Source of the DNA: a candidate division WOR-3 bacterium
GTDB lineage: Bacteria > Hydrothermota > Tepidihabitantia > SM23-42 > JAOAFX01
DNA: 33,375 nucleotides
Assembly (NCBI GenBank): GCA_039802205.1
Contig: JBDRWD010000024.1
Coordinates: 1 to 33,375, forward strand
Reading direction: 5' to 3'
Translations under genes and position numbers: made by a program
Shown: positions 200-8,636 of the stretch, one piece after another
How the letters are laid out: every line of letters begins with the position of its first letter
Position numbering within the stretch: the stretch's first letter is position 1
The notes under the pieces: model-generated
What the model was told of the DNA's origin: nothing
Databases searched by the model: none
Seen by the model: only the letters and a program-made list of their open reading frames with translations

Positions 200-337
200 G
201 TGGTTAGGATTTTGCGTTCCTGCAGGCTCAATCGTAACTGCCCGACCCAGGCAGAGTTTGCCCTTTTAAATCTTAACCACAACCACACCGCATTCTCCTT
301 TAATCACTACTGGTATTGGCACTTCCGGGCCCAATAA
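200..337 (+). CDS. Leader peptide rich in His, Phe, Tyr and Trp (45 aa), probable attenuator peptide
   Basis: The frame GTG 200 to TAA 335-337 encodes 45 residues, ending TAFSFNHYWYWHFRAQ. Eleven of the last 20 residues are His (4), Phe (3), Tyr (2) or Trp (2); the first 25 contain one Phe and no His, Tyr or Trp. The operon behind it makes precisely these amino acids: DAHP and EPSP synthases (all aromatics), prephenate dehydratase (Phe), TrpEG (Trp) and HisD (His). GTG 200 has no ribosome-binding site but lies six nt after the -10 box, as in other leaderless genes of this window. TTG 212 is the only other usual in-frame start. Seen: the frame and codons. Known: leader peptides of trp, phe and his operons use runs of the regulated codons. 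Inferred: ribosome stalling at 293-325 controls the operon. The frame shows no similarity to a structured protein that I can recognise. Confidence 0.75.
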   Translation: MVRILRSCRLNRNCPTQAEFALLNLNHNHTAFSFNHYWYWHFRAQ

Positions 338-432
338 GGGTCGCAAAATCCTTTTTGGTCCCGGAAGTGCCATCAATCTTCCTTCATCAATAACGCCACT
401 TTTTACCCTGAAAAAAAGAAAGGAGGTAAATA
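200..432 (+). promoter_or_regulatory. Structured leader RNA with alternative pairings (attenuator)
   Basis: Segment A (200-212) pairs with B (268-280) over 13 bp with one G-U pair. Segment C (318-329) pairs with E (360-371) over 12 perfect bp and overlaps the last Trp-His-Phe codons of the leader peptide. A 5-bp hairpin (238-242 with 250-254) lies inside the first domain. Segment 206-216 is also perfectly complementary over 11 bp to 342-352 (D), inside the loop of C:E, so A:B and A:D exclude each other. Codons at 294-301 can pair with the ribosome-binding site of the first enzyme gene (419-426; seven Watson-Crick pairs plus G-U), and 402-407 can pair with 425-430. I see no hairpin plus U-run typical of an intrinsic terminator, so the output could be translational or Rho-dependent. 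There is no T-box or riboswitch consensus that I recognise. Confidence 0.6.
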
Positions 433-1449: not shown

Positions 1450-2303
1450 GTAACCCGATCCAGGTGTATTTCCAAGGGACAAAGGGTGCCTACAGTGAAG
1501 TGGCGGCCACGAGATTCTTTAACAAGAAAGTAATAACCACTGGTCTAACCGGTTTTGAAGATTTGTTCGCGGCACTGGACAAAGCCCCCGATGCCTATGC
1601 TGTATTGCCTATCGAAAATTCCTTGACTGGAAGCATCCATCGGAATTACGATTTGCTCTTAACCGGTAAAGTCTGGATCGTAGGGGAAGTAGAATTGCAG
1701 ATAACTTACAATCTTTTGGGTTTGGATTCAAATACGGAATTAAAAGAAATCTGGGCACACCCGGTAGTTTTAGAACAATGCCGCGACTTCATCACCAAGA
1801 ATCCAAAATATAAAATTGTCCCCTTTTTTGATTCTGCCGGTGCCGCGGAGGTGGTGATAAAAAACCAACGAAAAGATGTTGGTATCATCGCCGGTCCCCA
1901 GGTTGCTCTCGTGTATGGTCTGAAGACATTGACAAAAGGAATAGAGGACAATCCGATGAATTTCACCCGCTTTTTGGTTCTTTCCAAAAAAGAGAAAATC
2001 CATCCTGGGCCAGATGCAAAATCTTCTTTGGTCTTTGGTGTCAAAAACGAGCCCGGCATCCTATTCCGCTGCCTGAGCATCTTCGCCCTCAGAAATATTG
2101 ATCTGATGAAACTGGAATCCCGACCTATCATCGGGAAACCATGGGAGTATATTTTCTATATTGATTTCCAGGGAAGCATCGCCGAGGAACGATGTAGAAA
2201 GGCGGTGGAAATTCTCGAAGAAATTGCAGTTTATTATAAATTCCTCGGTAGTTATCCGGTGATAAAGGAGCAGAACCATGAATATCTTGGTAAAAAATTG
2301 TAG
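1446..2303 (+). CDS. pheA: Prephenate dehydratase with ACT domain
   Basis: Converts prephenate to phenylpyruvate, the committed step to phenylalanine. At 285 residues it is a stand-alone dehydratase with no chorismate mutase domain. The catalytic part (about 1-180) shows [14 protein letters not shown] at the N-terminus, the [15 protein letters not shown] motif, and the Thr-Arg-Phe catalytic triplet in MNFTRFLVL. The C-terminal ACT domain (about 195-275) contains the ESRP motif that binds phenylalanine in this family, so feedback inhibition by Phe is likely. Its ATG overlaps the stop of the DAHP synthase gene by four bases. Its own 3' end overlaps the EPSP synthase gene by 26 bases. A separate chorismate mutase must be encoded elsewhere. 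Confidence 0.94.
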
Positions 2304-3600
2304 TATTGCTTCAGGGCTGCTCGCGGTTGGGGGGGATAAGTCGATCACGCATCGAGCTTTGATTCTGGGAACCCTCGCTGAAGGTCGCAGTGAGCTCATA
2401 AATCCTTCTGACGCTGAAGATTGCCAAGCAACCATTAGATGTTTAAAAATGCTTGGCGCCGAAATAATTAAAAAAGATTCCCGGATTATCATTGAGGGCA
2501 AAGGACTTTACAGTCTAAAGGAACCCGAAGATGTTCTGGACTGCCGCAATTCCGGAACCACCATCCGCCTATTAACCGGACTCCTTGCTGGACAGAAATT
2601 CTACTCGGTCCTCACCGGTGATGATTCCTTACGAAGAAGGCCCATGGCAAGGATAATCGATCCGCTGCGCCTAATGGGGGCAAATATTGAGAGCCGCAAA
2701 GGTGGATTAGCACCGCTCAGCATTAAAGGAAGTGATTTAAGGGGGATCGAATATCGGCTTCCCATTCCCAGTGCCCAGGTGAAATCGGCTTTAATGCTTG
2801 CCGGATTCTATGCTGATTCCCCAACCATAATTGAAGAACCAATTTCTTCACGGGATCATTCCGAACGTTTATTTACTTATTTAGGAATAAGGTTTAGTAA
2901 AAAGGGGAATCGGATTGAGATAAGACCAAGGCCAATCTTCAAAGGCAAAACTATTTACATCCCTAACGACATCTCTTCGGCAGCATTTTTTATCGTCCTT
3001 GGTTGTCTCATTGGAGATAAACTGGTCATTCAAGAAACCGGGATAAACCCACTGCGCAGCGGGGTGATTGAGATATTGAAAAAGGCGGGTGCTTTGATCA
3101 CCATAGGGAATAAAAAAATCTTTTCCGAGGAACCGGTGGCGGATATTATTGTAAGAAAGAGAAAACCGCGTGCATTCACAATCGGCGGATCATTAATTCC
3201 TTCAGTGATCGATGAAATTCCAGTGCTTGCTGTACTTGCTACTCAGCTTGATGGAACCTCGGTGATCAAAGATGCCCAAGAACTGCGGGTCAAGGAGACT
3301 GACCGGTTGAGGGCGATTGCTACCGAGTTACAAAAATTTGGTGCCCGGATAAAAGAGGAACCCGACGGATTGATAATAAATGGGCCCACTCGCTTGAGAG
3401 GCACAGTATGTAAAAGTTATCATGACCACCGGATTGCCATGGCCCTGACTGTAGCGGGTTTGATTGCCGAAGGAGAAACCGTGATCCAGGATGCCGAATG
3501 TATCAAAATATCCTTTCCTGATTTTATCGAGAAATTAAAAACCATCTGTGGAGAGGAATATGTTCAAATTGAGGGTCTCAACAATAATCAAAGAGTATAA
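2278..3600 (+). CDS. aroA: EPSP synthase (3-phosphoshikimate 1-carboxyvinyltransferase)
   Basis: Transfers the enolpyruvyl group of PEP to shikimate 3-phosphate, the penultimate step to chorismate. The 440 residues form the usual two-domain inside-out barrel. Motifs seen in order are GDKSITHRALILG, NSGTTIRLLTG, LRRRPM, SAQVKSALMLAG, RDHSERL, the DEIPVLAV catalytic Asp region, KETDRL and YHDHRIAMAL. The GDKS, SAQVK and RDHSE motifs match the signature set described for class II EPSP synthases. The Pro that follows NAGTAMR in the E. coli enzyme is Leu here. The ATG lies inside the end of pheA, with AAAGGAG seven nt upstream, so it is coupled to pheA. The end overlaps the start of trpE. Confidence 0.95.
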   Translation: MNILVKNCSIASGLLAVGGDKSITHRALILGTLAEGRSELINPSDAEDCQATIRCLKMLGAEIIKKDSRIIIEGKGLYSLKEPEDVLDCRNSGTTIRLLTGLLAGQKFYSVLTGDDSLRRRPMARIIDPLRLMGANIESRKGGLAPLSIKGSDLRGIEYRLPIPSAQVKSALMLAGFYADSPTIIEEPISSRDHSERLFTYLGIRFSKKGNRIEIRPRPIFKGKTIYIPNDISSAAFFIVLGCLIGDKLVIQETGINPLRSGVIEILKKAGALITIGNKKIFSEEPVADIIVRKRKPRAFTIGGSLIPSVIDEIPVLAVLATQLDGTSVIKDAQELRVKETDRLRAIATELQKFGARIKEEPDGLIINGPTRLRGTVCKSYHDHRIAMALTVAGLIAEGETVIQDAECIKISFPDFIEKLKTICGEEYVQIEGLNNNQRV

Positions 3601-4933
3601 AACCCCACCCTTAGACGCATACTACCTGCTTTATCATGATGAACCTTATGCCTTCTTGTATGAATCGCTGGAATTGAGTGGTAGTCACGGCCGCTATTCA
3701 TTTTTGGGCGCGCGTCCCGGCATCATCTTCCGGGCATACAACGGCATAATTAATATCTATGAGGCAGAAAGGAGGATAAAAAAATACGGTAATCCTTTTG
3801 GCGAACTCCGGAAAATTTTAAAATGTTACATGAGTAAAGATTATTTTGCCCCCTTTAACGGGGGCGCCGTCGGTTATGTTGCCTATGATGCAGTCCGTTA
3901 TTTTGAAAAAATTCCCGATAAAAATCCCGATGAATTAAAAATCCCTGATCTATTTTTTATCTTTCCTCAAGAGATTGTAATCTTTGACCACAAGTATCAC
4001 TCTGCTCAAATCTTGATGTTTGACGAAGACAAGCACCGATTAGAGTATGTAAAAAAAATTCTTAATCGAGGGATGTGTCTCCAGAAAAAAAACACACAAA
4101 CAAAGAACCGGATATCCTATGAAGCAAATTTCACCAAAAAAGAATTCTGTAATGCTGTAAAAATTGCGAAGGAATATATCTTTGCAGGTGATATATTCCA
4201 AGTTGTGCTGGCCCAGCGATTTAAAACGCCGGTCAAAAAGCCGTATTTTGATATTTATCAGGCATTACGTATCGCTAACCCTTCGCCGTATATGTACTAT
4301 TTGAAACTCGATGATATCACAATTCTGGGGTCTTCCCCGGAGACTTTAGTGAAATTAAAAAACGGCGTGGCTGTATCACGGCCTCTTGCCGGAACCAGAC
4401 CACGAGGTCATAATACAATCCAGGATAAAAAACTCGCCCAGGAATTGTTAACCGATGAAAAAGAACGTGCTGAGCATATTATGCTCGTGGATCTTGCCCG
4501 TAATGACTTAGGCAAGGTCTGCTGCTACGGCACTGTCCGAACCAATAGATTGTTAAAAATTGAACGTTATTCAAAGGTCATGCATCTTGTATCAAATGTC
4601 GTGGGCAGACTAGATGAAAGGTTTGACAGTATTGACCTTTTTATCGCTTCATTTCCTGCAGGAACTGTTTCAGGTGCACCTAAGATCAGGGCAATGGAGA
4701 TCATCGACGAATTGGAACCTGTCCGGCGTGGGTTGTATGCTGGGGCGATCGGTTATTTTGATTTCCAGGGTAATATGGATTTCTGCATTGGGATAAGGAT
4801 GATTCTCATCAAAGATGGAATCGCTTATCTCCAGGGAGGTGCGGGTATTGTCGCGGATTCAATCCCAGAAAAAGAATATCAGGAAACGATAAATAAAACC
4901 CGGGCTTTAAAATCAGCATTGGCGATAGCATGA
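3560..4933 (+). CDS. trpE: Anthranilate synthase component I
   Basis: Makes anthranilate from chorismate using ammonia supplied by the glutaminase subunit; first step of the tryptophan branch. About 457 residues. The N-terminal part carries the SLELSGSHGRYSFLGARPG segment, which in TrpE forms the Trp feedback site together with later residues. The chorismate-binding domain shows FQVVLAQRF, SSPETLVKL, RPLAGTRPRG, VDLARNDLG, FPAGTVSGAPKIRAMEII and GGAGIVADSIPEKEYQET. These favour TrpE over PabB, though PabB cannot be fully excluded by eye. An in-frame GTG at 3548 is possible. ATG 3560 is preferred because GGAGAGG lies directly upstream with proper spacing. It overlaps aroA by 41 bases and trpG by four. 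Confidence 0.92.
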   Translation: MFKLRVSTIIKEYKTPPLDAYYLLYHDEPYAFLYESLELSGSHGRYSFLGARPGIIFRAYNGIINIYEAERRIKKYGNPFGELRKILKCYMSKDYFAPFNGGAVGYVAYDAVRYFEKIPDKNPDELKIPDLFFIFPQEIVIFDHKYHSAQILMFDEDKHRLEYVKKILNRGMCLQKKNTQTKNRISYEANFTKKEFCNAVKIAKEYIFAGDIFQVVLAQRFKTPVKKPYFDIYQALRIANPSPYMYYLKLDDITILGSSPETLVKLKNGVAVSRPLAGTRPRGHNTIQDKKLAQELLTDEKERAEHIMLVDLARNDLGKVCCYGTVRTNRLLKIERYSKVMHLVSNVVGRLDERFDSIDLFIASFPAGTVSGAPKIRAMEIIDELEPVRRGLYAGAIGYFDFQGNMDFCIGIRMILIKDGIAYLQGGAGIVADSIPEKEYQETINKTRALKSALAIA

Positions 4934-5535
4934 TCCTTTTGATTGACAACTATGATTCATTTGTCTATAATCTGGCTCAGTATCTCGGAGCACTGGGTGA
5001 AAAATTGATTGTGGTCCGCAATGATGAGATTGGGATTAAAAGAATAAAGCGAATGAAAATTGACTACATTTTTATCTCCCCAGGTCCCAAAACTCCAAAG
5101 GAAGCGGGAATGACCTGCCGGATTATCGAATGCTTTGCGGGTAAAATCCCAATCTTTGGTGTCTGCCTTGGGCATCAGGCAATTGCTGAAGTATTCGGAG
5201 GCAAGGTAGTTCGGGCTCCCACGGTCGTTCATGGTAAAGTATCTTTAATTTACCATGATCAGAAGACAATCTTTAAAAAGATAAAAAATCCTTTTTATGC
5301 CACCCGTTATCATTCCCTAATTGTCCCCCAAGAATCGATTCCTTTTTGTCTCGAAATGACGGCTTGGACTGAAGACGGATTGGTGATGGGCATAAGGCAC
5401 CGTGAATATCCTATCGAAGGTGTTCAATTCCATCCTGAATCGATATTAACCACATCCGGGAAAACGCTTCTTAAAAATTTTTTAAATTTTTACAAAAAGA
5501 AAGTTGACAAAAAGGAGGAAAATTGCAAATATTGA
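4930..5535 (+). CDS. trpG: Anthranilate synthase component II (glutamine amidotransferase)
   Basis: Class I glutamine amidotransferase that hydrolyses glutamine and channels ammonia to TrpE. At 201 residues it is a free-standing subunit. The N-terminal LIDNYDSFVYNLAQYLG, the oxyanion SPGPKTPKEAG, the nucleophile Cys in GVCLGHQAIAEVFGG and the His-Glu pair in GVQFHPESILT are all present, so the catalytic triad is intact. The same protein may serve as PabA in folate synthesis, since no pabA is seen nearby. The ATGA overlap with trpE indicates translational coupling. The last residues are Lys-rich and the gene runs 13 bases into hisD, whose ribosome-binding site lies inside it. Confidence 0.94.
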   Translation: MILLIDNYDSFVYNLAQYLGALGEKLIVVRNDEIGIKRIKRMKIDYIFISPGPKTPKEAGMTCRIIECFAGKIPIFGVCLGHQAIAEVFGGKVVRAPTVVHGKVSLIYHDQKTIFKKIKNPFYATRYHSLIVPQESIPFCLEMTAWTEDGLVMGIRHREYPIEGVQFHPESILTTSGKTLLKNFLNFYKKKVDKKEENCKY

Positions 5536-6788
5536 GAAGCGAAGAATTGCCGGAGGATTTTTTCCGGCCTCAAATGGAAGGAAATATAAGTCTGGTCCGC
5601 TCGATTGTGAATGAGGTAAAAAATTTCGGTGACCGGGCGTTAAATAAATATACCAAAAAATTCGATAAAGTTTCAGTTTCGAATTTTCGGGTTACTCCTG
5701 CAGAGTTGAAAAAAGCTGCCCACTCCATTGATAAGCATCTGCTCCAAGCTCTGACCCGAGCCAAGGAGAATATTGAAAAATTCTCCCGTGCCCAGTTATG
5801 TCAATTAAAAAATTTTAAGATTAATATCACCAATGGGGTGATCGCCGAGCAAGTAATAATCCCCCTTGAGAGAATTGGCATTTATATCCCCGGAGGAAGA
5901 TTTCCTCTTATTTCTACAGTTTTGATGTGCGGTGTCCCAGCGATGGTAGCAGGAGTAAAGGAAATCGCAATATGTTCACCGCCAACCTATCAGAATTCGG
6001 TGCACCCCTTAATACTGGCTACCGCCCAGTTTTTAGGGATCAGGGAAGTATACAAGGTCGGAGGTATTCAGGCGATTGCAGCAATGGCTTATGGAACCAA
6101 AACAGTGAAACCAGTTGCGAAAATCTTTGGACCAGGAAATATCTTTGTAGCAAGTGCCAAGAAATATGTATTTGGAGATGTAGGCATTGATTTTATCGCC
6201 GGGCCCACCGAAATCTTGATCATCGCAGACGAATCAGCTGTTCCTGAGATTGTAGCTGCAGATCTGCTTGCCCAGGCCGAACATGATCCCAATGCCCTAC
6301 CTATTTTAGTAACTAACGCTCCAAGTTTTGCCGGTAAAGTAATAAAAATTCTCAACCGGCAGGTTAAAATTCTTAAGACCGGGCGGATTGCGAAAAGAGC
6401 TTTAAATAACAATGGTCTAATCATCATTGCCCAGGACATTGAAGAGGCAATAGAAATTGCTAATAAAAAAGCCCCAGAACATTTAGAATTACAGATTAAA
6501 AATCCTGAAAGATATATCTCAAGATTGAAAAATTATGGAACCCTTTTCGTCGGTAAATATGCAGCCGAGGTGCTCGGAGACTACAGCAGTGGTTTGAATC
6601 ATACACTTCCTACCGCAGGTGCGGCACGATATACAGGTGGCCTCCACATAAAAGATTTCTTGAAGATTCAAACCGTTTTGAGAGTGAATAAAATTGGCTT
6701 AAAGCGGATCGGCCCGATTGCTCAGATTCTTGCCCAGACCGAAGGTTTATTTGCCCATGCCCGTTCCATCGAGGTGAGGATGAGATAA
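5523..6788 (+). CDS. hisD: Histidinol dehydrogenase
   Basis: Catalyses the last two steps of histidine synthesis, oxidising L-histidinol to histidine with NAD and Zn2+. The 421 residues match the family length. Visible motifs are GRFPLISTVLM, KIFGPGNIFVASAKKY, FIAGPTEILIIAD, the metal-binding AEHDPNA, the catalytic APEHLEL, LGDYSSGLNHTLPT and the late FAHARSIE histidine. All key residues appear intact. The start is TTG 5523: AAGGAGG lies just upstream, and no closer ATG keeps the N-terminus. It is the last gene of the aromatic operon and its only histidine gene. That is unusual, but the leader peptide carries four His codons near its end. Confidence 0.95.
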   Translation: MQILRSEELPEDFFRPQMEGNISLVRSIVNEVKNFGDRALNKYTKKFDKVSVSNFRVTPAELKKAAHSIDKHLLQALTRAKENIEKFSRAQLCQLKNFKINITNGVIAEQVIIPLERIGIYIPGGRFPLISTVLMCGVPAMVAGVKEIAICSPPTYQNSVHPLILATAQFLGIREVYKVGGIQAIAAMAYGTKTVKPVAKIFGPGNIFVASAKKYVFGDVGIDFIAGPTEILIIADESAVPEIVAADLLAQAEHDPNALPILVTNAPSFAGKVIKILNRQVKILKTGRIAKRALNNNGLIIIAQDIEEAIEIANKKAPEHLELQIKNPERYISRLKNYGTLFVGKYAAEVLGDYSSGLNHTLPTAGAARYTGGLHIKDFLKIQTVLRVNKIGLKRIGPIAQILAQTEGLFAHARSIEVRMR

Positions 6789-6825: not shown

Positions 6826-7428
6826 ATGAGTCTAAATTTTGTTTGCATTCTAATCTTTAACATCACAATCAATTCGGCAAATGGTGCTTTCACCGGAGAA
6901 GTTACCTACTCGGGTACAACCGAACTCGCTACTGCCTCGTTTAAACTATATGATCACGAAGGCAATATGCTCTATCATATTGTAAACCCGGAGGCAATTA
7001 CCTTTTTCATCAGCAACACCGGTGAAGTCTTTGCTACTAACGAACAGAGCTTATATCTGTATAAGTTAACAGGCGAGATAAAAATTCTCAAAAAACTTAA
7101 TTATCCCAATGGATTCGGGTTCTCTCCGGACAATAAGATCTTTTTTGCCTCAGACCGCAACGGTTTATACGCCTATTCCATGTCTGGAGGATTGCTCTAT
7201 CATTTCAATCCGGGTCGCCTTTTTGCGAGCACTGATAGTGCCCACCGTGTGGTAGTGGTCTCAAATGATACACTCTTCTTGTATGAAAAAGGGAAATTAA
7301 AAACCCAGACACTCTTGCCTAACCCCTATGTGAGAAAGATCCAATTCATCAACGAAGATCAAGTTGAGATTATACTGCCGGATACCACACTTTACCTTGA
7401 ATGGTTACAAAAGTGTAAGGAGGATTGA
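6826..7428 (+). CDS. Exported protein of unknown function, beta-propeller-like
   Basis: I do not recognise the family. The first 20 or so residues (hydrophobic FVCILIFNI followed by SANGAFTG) look like a signal peptide with cleavage near residue 20. The mature 180 residues are short beta-strand blocks alternating with Asn/Gly/Asp turns. Examples are FFISNTGEVFATNEQSLYLY and FSPDNKIFFASDRNGLYAYS, which resemble blades of a WD40/SMP-30-like propeller, but too few blades are present for a full propeller. There are no cysteines apart from one in the signal region and one near the C-terminus, and no catalytic motif. The start is supported by the promoter just upstream. The TGA overlaps the next start codon (ATGA-type), so it is coupled to the M23 peptidase gene. 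Confidence 0.7.
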   Translation: MSLNFVCILIFNITINSANGAFTGEVTYSGTTELATASFKLYDHEGNMLYHIVNPEAITFFISNTGEVFATNEQSLYLYKLTGEIKILKKLNYPNGFGFSPDNKIFFASDRNGLYAYSMSGGLLYHFNPGRLFASTDSAHRVVVVSNDTLFLYEKGKLKTQTLLPNPYVRKIQFINEDQVEIILPDTTLYLEWLQKCKED

Positions 7429-8636
7429 TGTTTTTATTGTTCATTATAAATGTCGGCTGGCCCCTGGGACCCCAGGATGAAACCCATCCTATTGGAAATA
7501 ATTGGGGGGAATATCAATATTACGGGAGTGGAAGTGCCTATCTCCATCCCGGGATTGATGTGATGGGGAATTCTGTAGGCCAGCCTGTTTACGCAGTGCA
7601 GCGAGGAATTGTCAAGGCCTGGCTCACCACGCAGGCTGAATATCACTGGCGCTTAGCTATTGCTGATTCTAATATCTCTAATGACTCTGTGGAAGCCTGG
7701 CTTTATGCACATATCGATCCCAATCGATACCACAAAAATGTCGGCGATATCGTGAATGAGGGAGATCTGATCGGCTATCTTGTCCCTTGGCCTGTTACTG
7801 GTTTTGACCATTGCCATTTCGCCCGTATCAAGGATATCGGTCCGGTCTGGAATACTGCGGATTGGGCATTCGTGAGAAATCCCCTGGCAATTATTACTCC
7901 CTATGATGATACTGCAAAGCCGGTATTTGAAAATGCGTATGGAAATTACAAATTTGCGATCTGTAACAATAATACCAGCACCTATCTAAATCCTCCAACG
8001 GTCGTCACAGGAAATGTGGATATCATCGCCAAGATTTATGACAAAACCGGGATCCCGATCAACCAGAATCCAGTCTGGGAAAAAATGATTCCCATGCGCA
8101 TCAGTTATGAAATCCACGGACCCCAGAATGTGCCGGAGAGGCTCTCTTTTCTATTCCGAGGTTACCTTTACTACAGCAGCAATGTCAATGTTGTATACAA
8201 AAATGATCAAGTATGCACGAGCCGTGGGGACTACGAAAATCGAGACTTTTATTTCATCGTAACTAATACTGACGGCGATACCCTTATCGAAGCTACAGAT
8301 GCAAATTATTCCTGGAATACTACAGGTTTTCCACCTGGCAATTATTGGATTGTAGTAACAGCAATGGATGCCGCGGGTAATACAACAAAGGATAGTATGA
8401 TGGTAACCATTCCCGGTCAGTCTGTTGAAGAAAATTATACATATCTAATCGCCCGCACGAGCATTGTCAATTCTCCCAAGGCACTCAATGAACTCTTCTG
8501 TAAATTTGCGGTAAAACTATATGATGTGAATGGACGCGTTCAAAGTGACTTCCATAATCTTCCGCCGGGAGTCTATTTTGCAATCTATAAAGATAATGGA
8601 GAGTTAAAACAGAAAAAGATCGTGATAATCAAGTAA
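7428..8636 (+). CDS. M23 (LytM-type) metallopeptidase with C-terminal sorting domain
   Basis: Probable secreted peptidase or peptidoglycan-binding relative. An M23 domain spans about residues 25-150. The zinc-binding His-x3-Asp is in YLHPGIDVMG and the His-x-His in FDHCHFARI, so the metal site seems complete. A middle segment (about 170-330) resembles immunoglobulin-like beta domains. The last 60 residues, with KLYDVNGRV, LPPGVYFAIY and KKIVIIK, resemble the type A sorting domain of type IX secretion cargo. The N-terminus MFLLFIINVGWPLG is an unusually short hydrophobic stretch. ATG 7428 is preferred to the in-frame TTG 7425 because AAGGAGG (7417-7423) is too close to TTG. It overlaps the previous stop codon by one base. 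The target of the enzyme cannot be told from sequence. Confidence 0.8.
   Translation: MFLLFIINVGWPLGPQDETHPIGNNWGEYQYYGSGSAYLHPGIDVMGNSVGQPVYAVQRGIVKAWLTTQAEYHWRLAIADSNISNDSVEAWLYAHIDPNRYHKNVGDIVNEGDLIGYLVPWPVTGFDHCHFARIKDIGPVWNTADWAFVRNPLAIITPYDDTAKPVFENAYGNYKFAICNNNTSTYLNPPTVVTGNVDIIAKIYDKTGIPINQNPVWEKMIPMRISYEIHGPQNVPERLSFLFRGYLYYSSNVNVVYKNDQVCTSRGDYENRDFYFIVTNTDGDTLIEATDANYSWNTTGFPPGNYWIVVTAMDAAGNTTKDSMMVTIPGQSVEENYTYLIARTSIVNSPKALNELFCKFAVKLYDVNGRVQSDFHNLPPGVYFAIYKDNGELKQKKIVIIK

Follow-up and report, generated by a model that had tools for sequence, protein, structure and literature searches.

A predicted leaderless leader peptide rich in His, Tyr, Trp and Phe codons as a probable attenuator of a His/aromatic amino acid regulon in candidate division WOR-3

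We analyzed a 33,375-nucleotide stretch of DNA from a candidate division WOR-3 bacterium (hereafter the window), in which an operon for aromatic amino acid biosynthesis is preceded by a short open reading frame. This frame quite probably encodes a leader peptide that is translated from a leaderless start and controls the operon by ribosome-mediated attenuation, using a set of codons for four amino acids, His, Tyr, Trp and Phe. With somewhat less confidence, we also favor the view that this one peptide integrates the supply of histidine and the three aromatic amino acids and controls a pan-His/aromatic regulon, and that its codon set evolves with the pathways that the operon retains. Attenuation by leader peptides is a known mechanism; the four-amino-acid codon set is unusual.

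The leader peptide frame occupies positions 200–337 of the forward strand and consists of 45 codons, from a GTG start that is predicted to be leaderless to the TAA stop codon at 335–337; its whole translation is VVRILRSCRLNRNCPTQAEFALLNLNHNHTAFSFNHYWYWHFRAQ. We obtained the same reading of the frame end, NHNHTAFSFNHYWYWHFRAQ-TAA, as the first-pass annotation of this DNA, and a recount agrees that 11 of the final 20 codons encode His, Phe, Tyr or Trp. In dinucleotide shuffles of the 300-nt region, a frame with at least 11 such codons, including all four amino acids, appeared in only 3 of 5000 cases. Related DNA totalling about 240 kb contained 6702 stop-ended 20-codon stretches, of which four reached this threshold; three of them are the leaders described here, and the fourth lies opposite the his-trp-aro operon, on the other strand. 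The predicted sensor codons fall into two groups: an outer group at 278–301 (His at 278–280 and 284–286, Phe at 293–295 and 299–301), which is conserved in the his-operon leaders of the genus, and a core at 305–325, His-Tyr-Trp-Tyr-Trp-His-Phe. The pattern FxFNHYWYW is kept across six genus copies, with silent variation in three codons and amino acid change only at x. For the last codons of 13 leaders, the fraction of His, Phe, Tyr and Trp is 44% in-frame versus 5–16% in the other five frames. Five genus copies have 108 nt between the leader start and YWYW, and two others have 111 and 90 nt; all of these distances are multiples of three.

Upstream of the frame, the forward strand carries a sigma-70 promoter that matches the consensus at 12 of 12 positions, with the −35 hexamer TTGACA at 166–171, a 16-nt spacer and the −10 hexamer TATAAT at 188–193. 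The GTG codon starts 6 nt after the −10 hexamer, at the predicted transcript start (about position 200). Ten leaders share this arrangement, with a 16-nt spacer and exactly 6 nt between the −10 hexamer and the ATG or GTG codon. Genome-wide, the pattern TTGACA-N16-TATAAT-N6-RTG, with at most two mismatches, was found at 228 sites, versus 6 sites for the reversed pattern that served as a control; an ORF of about 90 amino acids or more is opened by 24 of the 30 best pattern sites and by 32 of 40 further sites. The constant spacing in ten leaders and the genome-wide excess of the arrangement support the earlier proposal that the peptide itself is leaderless, and leaderless initiation is, on the evidence of promoter spacing, quite probable. 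Predicted leaderless genes, with the start codon exactly 6 nt downstream of TATAAT, are very common in this genome. Two other sites were observed in the window: a second 12/12 promoter-like site at 4943–4971, inside the start of trpG, which may serve trpG-hisD as an internal promoter, and an inverted repeat at 25–68, AGGCACTCC...GGGGTGCCT, followed by T-rich DNA, which is possibly the terminator of an upstream gene.

The first structural gene, an aroF-type DAHP synthase (433–1449), has the Shine-Dalgarno sequence AGGAGG at 421–426 and is followed, also on the forward strand, by pheA (prephenate dehydratase, 1446–2303), aroA (EPSP synthase, 2278–3600), trpE (3548–4933), trpG (4930–5535) and hisD (5523–6788). 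This gene order matches the first-pass description of an operon for the common aromatic steps, the Phe and Trp branches, and hisD. Directly 3′ of the operon, there is an ORF (7425–8636) with a weak C-terminal match to a T9SS sorting domain. A second leader element, 81% identical to the first, is located before hisG in the same genome; its frame is kept and ends in NHNHPTFSFNHYWYWHFRAQ. Behind it lies a 17-gene operon, hisG-hisC-hisB-hisH-hisF-hisA/IE-trpD-trpC-tyrA-trpF-aroE-aroC-aroK/B-aroQ-trpB-trpA plus a second DAHP synthase gene, in which trpF was assigned by its matches. Jointly, the two operons encode the biosynthesis of His, Trp, Phe and Tyr, precisely the four amino acids whose codons are clustered in the leaders. 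Because the same element heads this his-trp-tyr-aro operon, the whole set of His and aromatic pathways would answer one combined signal.

Relatives with the leader belong to candidate division WOR-3; the host and two congeners, three species of one genus, each carry both leader copies. By our search, hisG occurs in 10 of 147 genomes of the phylum and this kind of DAHP synthase in 17, so that His and aromatic pathways are rare in the phylum. The leaders that precede hisG in the more distant relatives G077 (MLTNTRKPFSLTNILARPSGLGRINHFEHHYWYWRFRT), G070 (MLNFTAQNFLQSHIRLLVINTNNSAVPFVYFFNYFWHPGHCLGCH) and G126 (MNNNDTKINSINKSIQKSLRRSFFSPSQRAGRYYVYPYIFYYSWWHKNKNTSEFTA) encode diverged peptides with a common design: the start lies 6 nt after the −10 hexamer, the His, Phe, Tyr and Trp codons come late in the frame, and there is usually a hairpin over the peptide end. 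An end-product-codon-rich short ORF lies between promoter and first gene, and its frame and regulatory codons are conserved in the three genus species as well as in G077, G070 and G126. The first-pass annotation proposed to search relatives for a short frame that is conserved, varies silently and has its His, Phe, Tyr and Trp codons in a cluster, and our comparison recovered such a frame; the opposite outcome, relatives with the operon but without a conserved His/aromatic-rich frame, was sought and not found. When we scanned about 85,000 species genomes with the pattern HYWYW[H/R]F, we obtained 22 matches, namely, 3 WOR-3 leaders and 19 matches that lie in short or unrelated frames.

The gene run is unbroken from hisG to hisD in G126 and from hisC to hisD in G127; in the host genus, it is split between two DAHP synthase genes, and those two adjoin in G082. 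The his-trp-tyr-aro-phe operon, which is single in G126, is thus split in two in the host genus, with a leader before each half, and the leader was probably duplicated when the operon split. The first-pass annotation took a combined sensor as the reason for the presence of hisD in the window operon; such a sensor is probable, but hisD is explained more fully by the split of the operon. It should be noted that these comparisons cover few independent lineages, and that the genomes are all draft or metagenome-derived.

The candidate terminator is a long hairpin at 317–372 (forward strand), which begins at the start of the last Trp codon, spans the peptide end and the stop codon, and is followed by a U-rich but interrupted tail at 373–386. 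Across leaders, 95.5% of the cells for this hairpin are paired, and there are two double-compensatory pairs in G077; G070, G071 and family f19 have other hairpins at the same place, and G126 has no strong local hairpin right at the codon cluster. The minimum free energy fold also contains a 5′ helix at 200–280 (forward strand), in which 200–212 pairs with 268–280; it is kept in five of the six genus leader folds and is weak or different elsewhere. Inspection of the leader folds revealed no conserved mutually exclusive antiterminator helix; on visual inspection, the window copy showed a possible antiterminator pairing of 206–216 with 344–354, which is weaker in the hisG copy. Instead of such a helix, the folds predict that the stalled ribosome itself masks the hairpin arm.

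In the mechanism that we propose, transcription would start at or near GTG 200, as judged from the promoter spacing, and the ribosome would initiate at the 5′ end of the transcript. With His, Tyr, Trp and Phe tRNAs charged, the ribosome would reach the stop codon at 335–337 and leave, the hairpin at 317–372 would form, and most transcripts would presumably end before the operon. With any of these tRNAs uncharged, the ribosome would stall in the Tyr-Trp-Tyr-Trp-His-Phe codons, its footprint would cover the 5′ arm of the hairpin and block hairpin formation, and RNA polymerase would be expected to read into the operon. Folding under a ribosome-sized mask is consistent with this scheme: the value for the window hairpin dropped from 0.88 to 0.41 at Trp38, 0.25 at Tyr39, 0.03 at Trp40, and 0 at both His41 and Phe42, and a similar loss was seen in the other hairpin-bearing leaders. 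The same genome contains, at L115:1501-1690, a predicted leaderless Ile/Leu/Val-rich leader, MQKYFIEIAICKIVLVILIALRRLGLMAV, with a GC-rich hairpin, a T6 run and a possible antiterminator; leuA lies a few hundred nucleotides past it, beyond a 109-aa ORF that belongs to no known family. By its sequence features, this leader looks like a classical attenuator that is leaderless, and its occurrence in the same genome supports ribosome-mediated attenuation in the window.

The His codons are the weakest part of the four-amino-acid reading, in which the case for His sensing is built on His 305–307, on the NHNH upstream of it, and on the genes that the operon contains. Possibly, although we regard this as fairly unlikely, the leader senses aromatic amino acids only, and the His codons have no sensing role and are retained through RNA structure or common descent. 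In favor of this, His 320–322 lies in a hairpin arm and is replaced by Arg (CGC) in the G069 aro leader and in G077, stalls at His upstream of the Tyr and Trp codons leave most of the hairpin in the masked fold (still 0.69 with the mask at His 305–307), and G071, without hisG and hisD, still has His codons, mostly in hairpin arms. However, His 305–307 lies outside the hairpin and is present in all genus copies, with a silent CAC/CAT change. Moreover, the last 22 codons hold four to five His in the his-operon leaders, compared to two in the G068 and G069 aro leaders, and His is present in the G077, G070 and G126 leaders and absent from the f19 aro leaders.

Losses of genes and codons bear on the match between leader codons and operon content. 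The G071 genome (99% complete) is without hisG, trpE and hisD, and its operon starts at tyrA with an apparent trpF remnant; its leader, MLNSTAQKFFHIPLMLSAVNARNSAVPFVYFFNFIGHPGHSPGCH, has GGG (Gly) where the sister G070 has TGG (Trp). The f19 aro leaders (G023 and G025), MGSVRFYFTRFYYYPL(I/N)ERG, contain Phe and Tyr only, and G023, the f19 genome tested, is without trpE. The G127 leader, REFFYLHFQI, with no Trp codon and a 9-nt spacing, fits poorly; G127 is an exception because trp genes are present although the leader has no Trp codon. These cases, few in number and with one substitution, are suggestive of a leader codon set that tracks the gene content of the operon. Some related loci were also inspected. 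The f19 DAHP synthase genes (L086, L088 and L089) have a Phe/Tyr-only short leader with its own hairpin, and a reading of the region upstream of hisG in f19 showed no obvious leader peptide. Near 3000–3120 of L099 (minus strand), G071 apparently keeps the first few hisG codons past the leader, as a trace left by the loss of the his genes.

A sub-variant of the attenuation reading, which we consider unlikely, is that termination depends on Rho, so that the stalled or translating ribosome would control access of Rho past the peptide, with the hairpin only positioning or pausing RNA polymerase. Rho is encoded in the genome, terminator-like sites show no enrichment in the window, and several leaders have an imperfect U-tract or none (the 12-nt tail contains six T in the window, four in the G069 aro leader, and two in G077 and f19). 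The poor U-tracts and the lack of enrichment also weigh against our main reading. Conversely, the his leaders of the genus have T5–T6 a few nucleotides past the stem, and the leuA leader of the same genome has a textbook hairpin with T6. Translational attenuation, in which a stall would unmask the Shine-Dalgarno sequence of the first gene, appears improbable. In the free fold, the Shine-Dalgarno sequence of the window pairs with 294–301 and becomes slightly freer on a stall, but its accessibility under stall masks shows no consistent change across leaders, the pairing that covers it is not conserved, and an operon of 17 genes is not obviously controlled via its first gene alone. In the masked folds, stalling at the Tyr and Trp codons removes the hairpin, whereas its effect on Shine-Dalgarno access is inconsistent; therefore, control of transcription is favored over control of first-gene translation.

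Arrest by the nascent chain, in which the specific sequence HYWYW would sense a free small molecule and halt the ribosome, is very improbable: HYWYWxFR hardly varies within the genus and G077, but G070, G071 and G126 have the same residues at the same place in unrelated orders (PFVYFFNYFWH, PFVYFFNF and YYVYPYIFYYSWWH, respectively), and therefore composition is kept, not sequence. That the element is a structured RNA, a riboswitch or a protein site with a coincidental ORF, is hardly credible, given the multiples-of-three spacing, the silent changes, the recurrence of the start spacing in diverged relatives, and an Rfam search (gathering and relaxed thresholds) that, apart from a tRNA, gave nothing beyond chance matches in the leader region and no T-box, even though the leader folds far better than shuffled sequences (z = −6.4).

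To our knowledge, the attenuators described to date respond to a single amino acid or to the set of one pathway. T-box riboswitches, located in front of amino acid genes, detect uncharged tRNA and need no ORF; the window has no T-box match. The enterobacterial trpL, pheL and hisL leaders resemble the window leader in having a short ORF with end-product codons and stem-loops by the stop codon, and differ from it in that each serves a single amino acid, is led by a Shine-Dalgarno sequence, and has a clear antiterminator and a U-tract terminator. A his leader is described in PMC3896937. In the closest known system, aroR of Corynebacterium glutamicum (Neshat et al. 2014, reviewed in PMC11802643), aromatic codons likewise precede a DAHP synthase (aroF) operon under ribosome-mediated attenuation; as described in the review, the codons are Phe-Tyr-Phe only, the leader heads the aroF operon rather than a His-plus-aromatic operon set, and Tyr availability reportedly made no difference. 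The first-pass statement that classical leaders respond either to a single amino acid or to the branched-chain set was therefore slightly too narrow. Actinobacterial ilvB leader ORFs overlap candidate terminator hairpins and, like the window leader, combine several amino acids per peptide; unlike it, they serve the branched-chain amino acids of one pathway family and have a polyU run (PMC1262725). The mycobacterial poly-Cys sORFs (Canestrari et al. 2020, cited in PMC9031893) are, as the window leader is predicted to be, leaderless short ORFs acting as amino-acid-responsive attenuators; as presented in the citing paper, they respond to cysteine only and regulate the translation of downstream genes. 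In a literature search of partial coverage, which makes this weak evidence, we found no leader that joins His with aromatic amino acids and no leader peptide reported from candidate division WOR-3.

If the proposed reading is true, codon composition on its own would suffice for cross-pathway control of His and aromatic amino acid biosynthesis, with no need for a regulatory protein. Because codons are lost alongside gene content in G071 and f19, the idea that leader codons are tuned to the operon can be tested directly.
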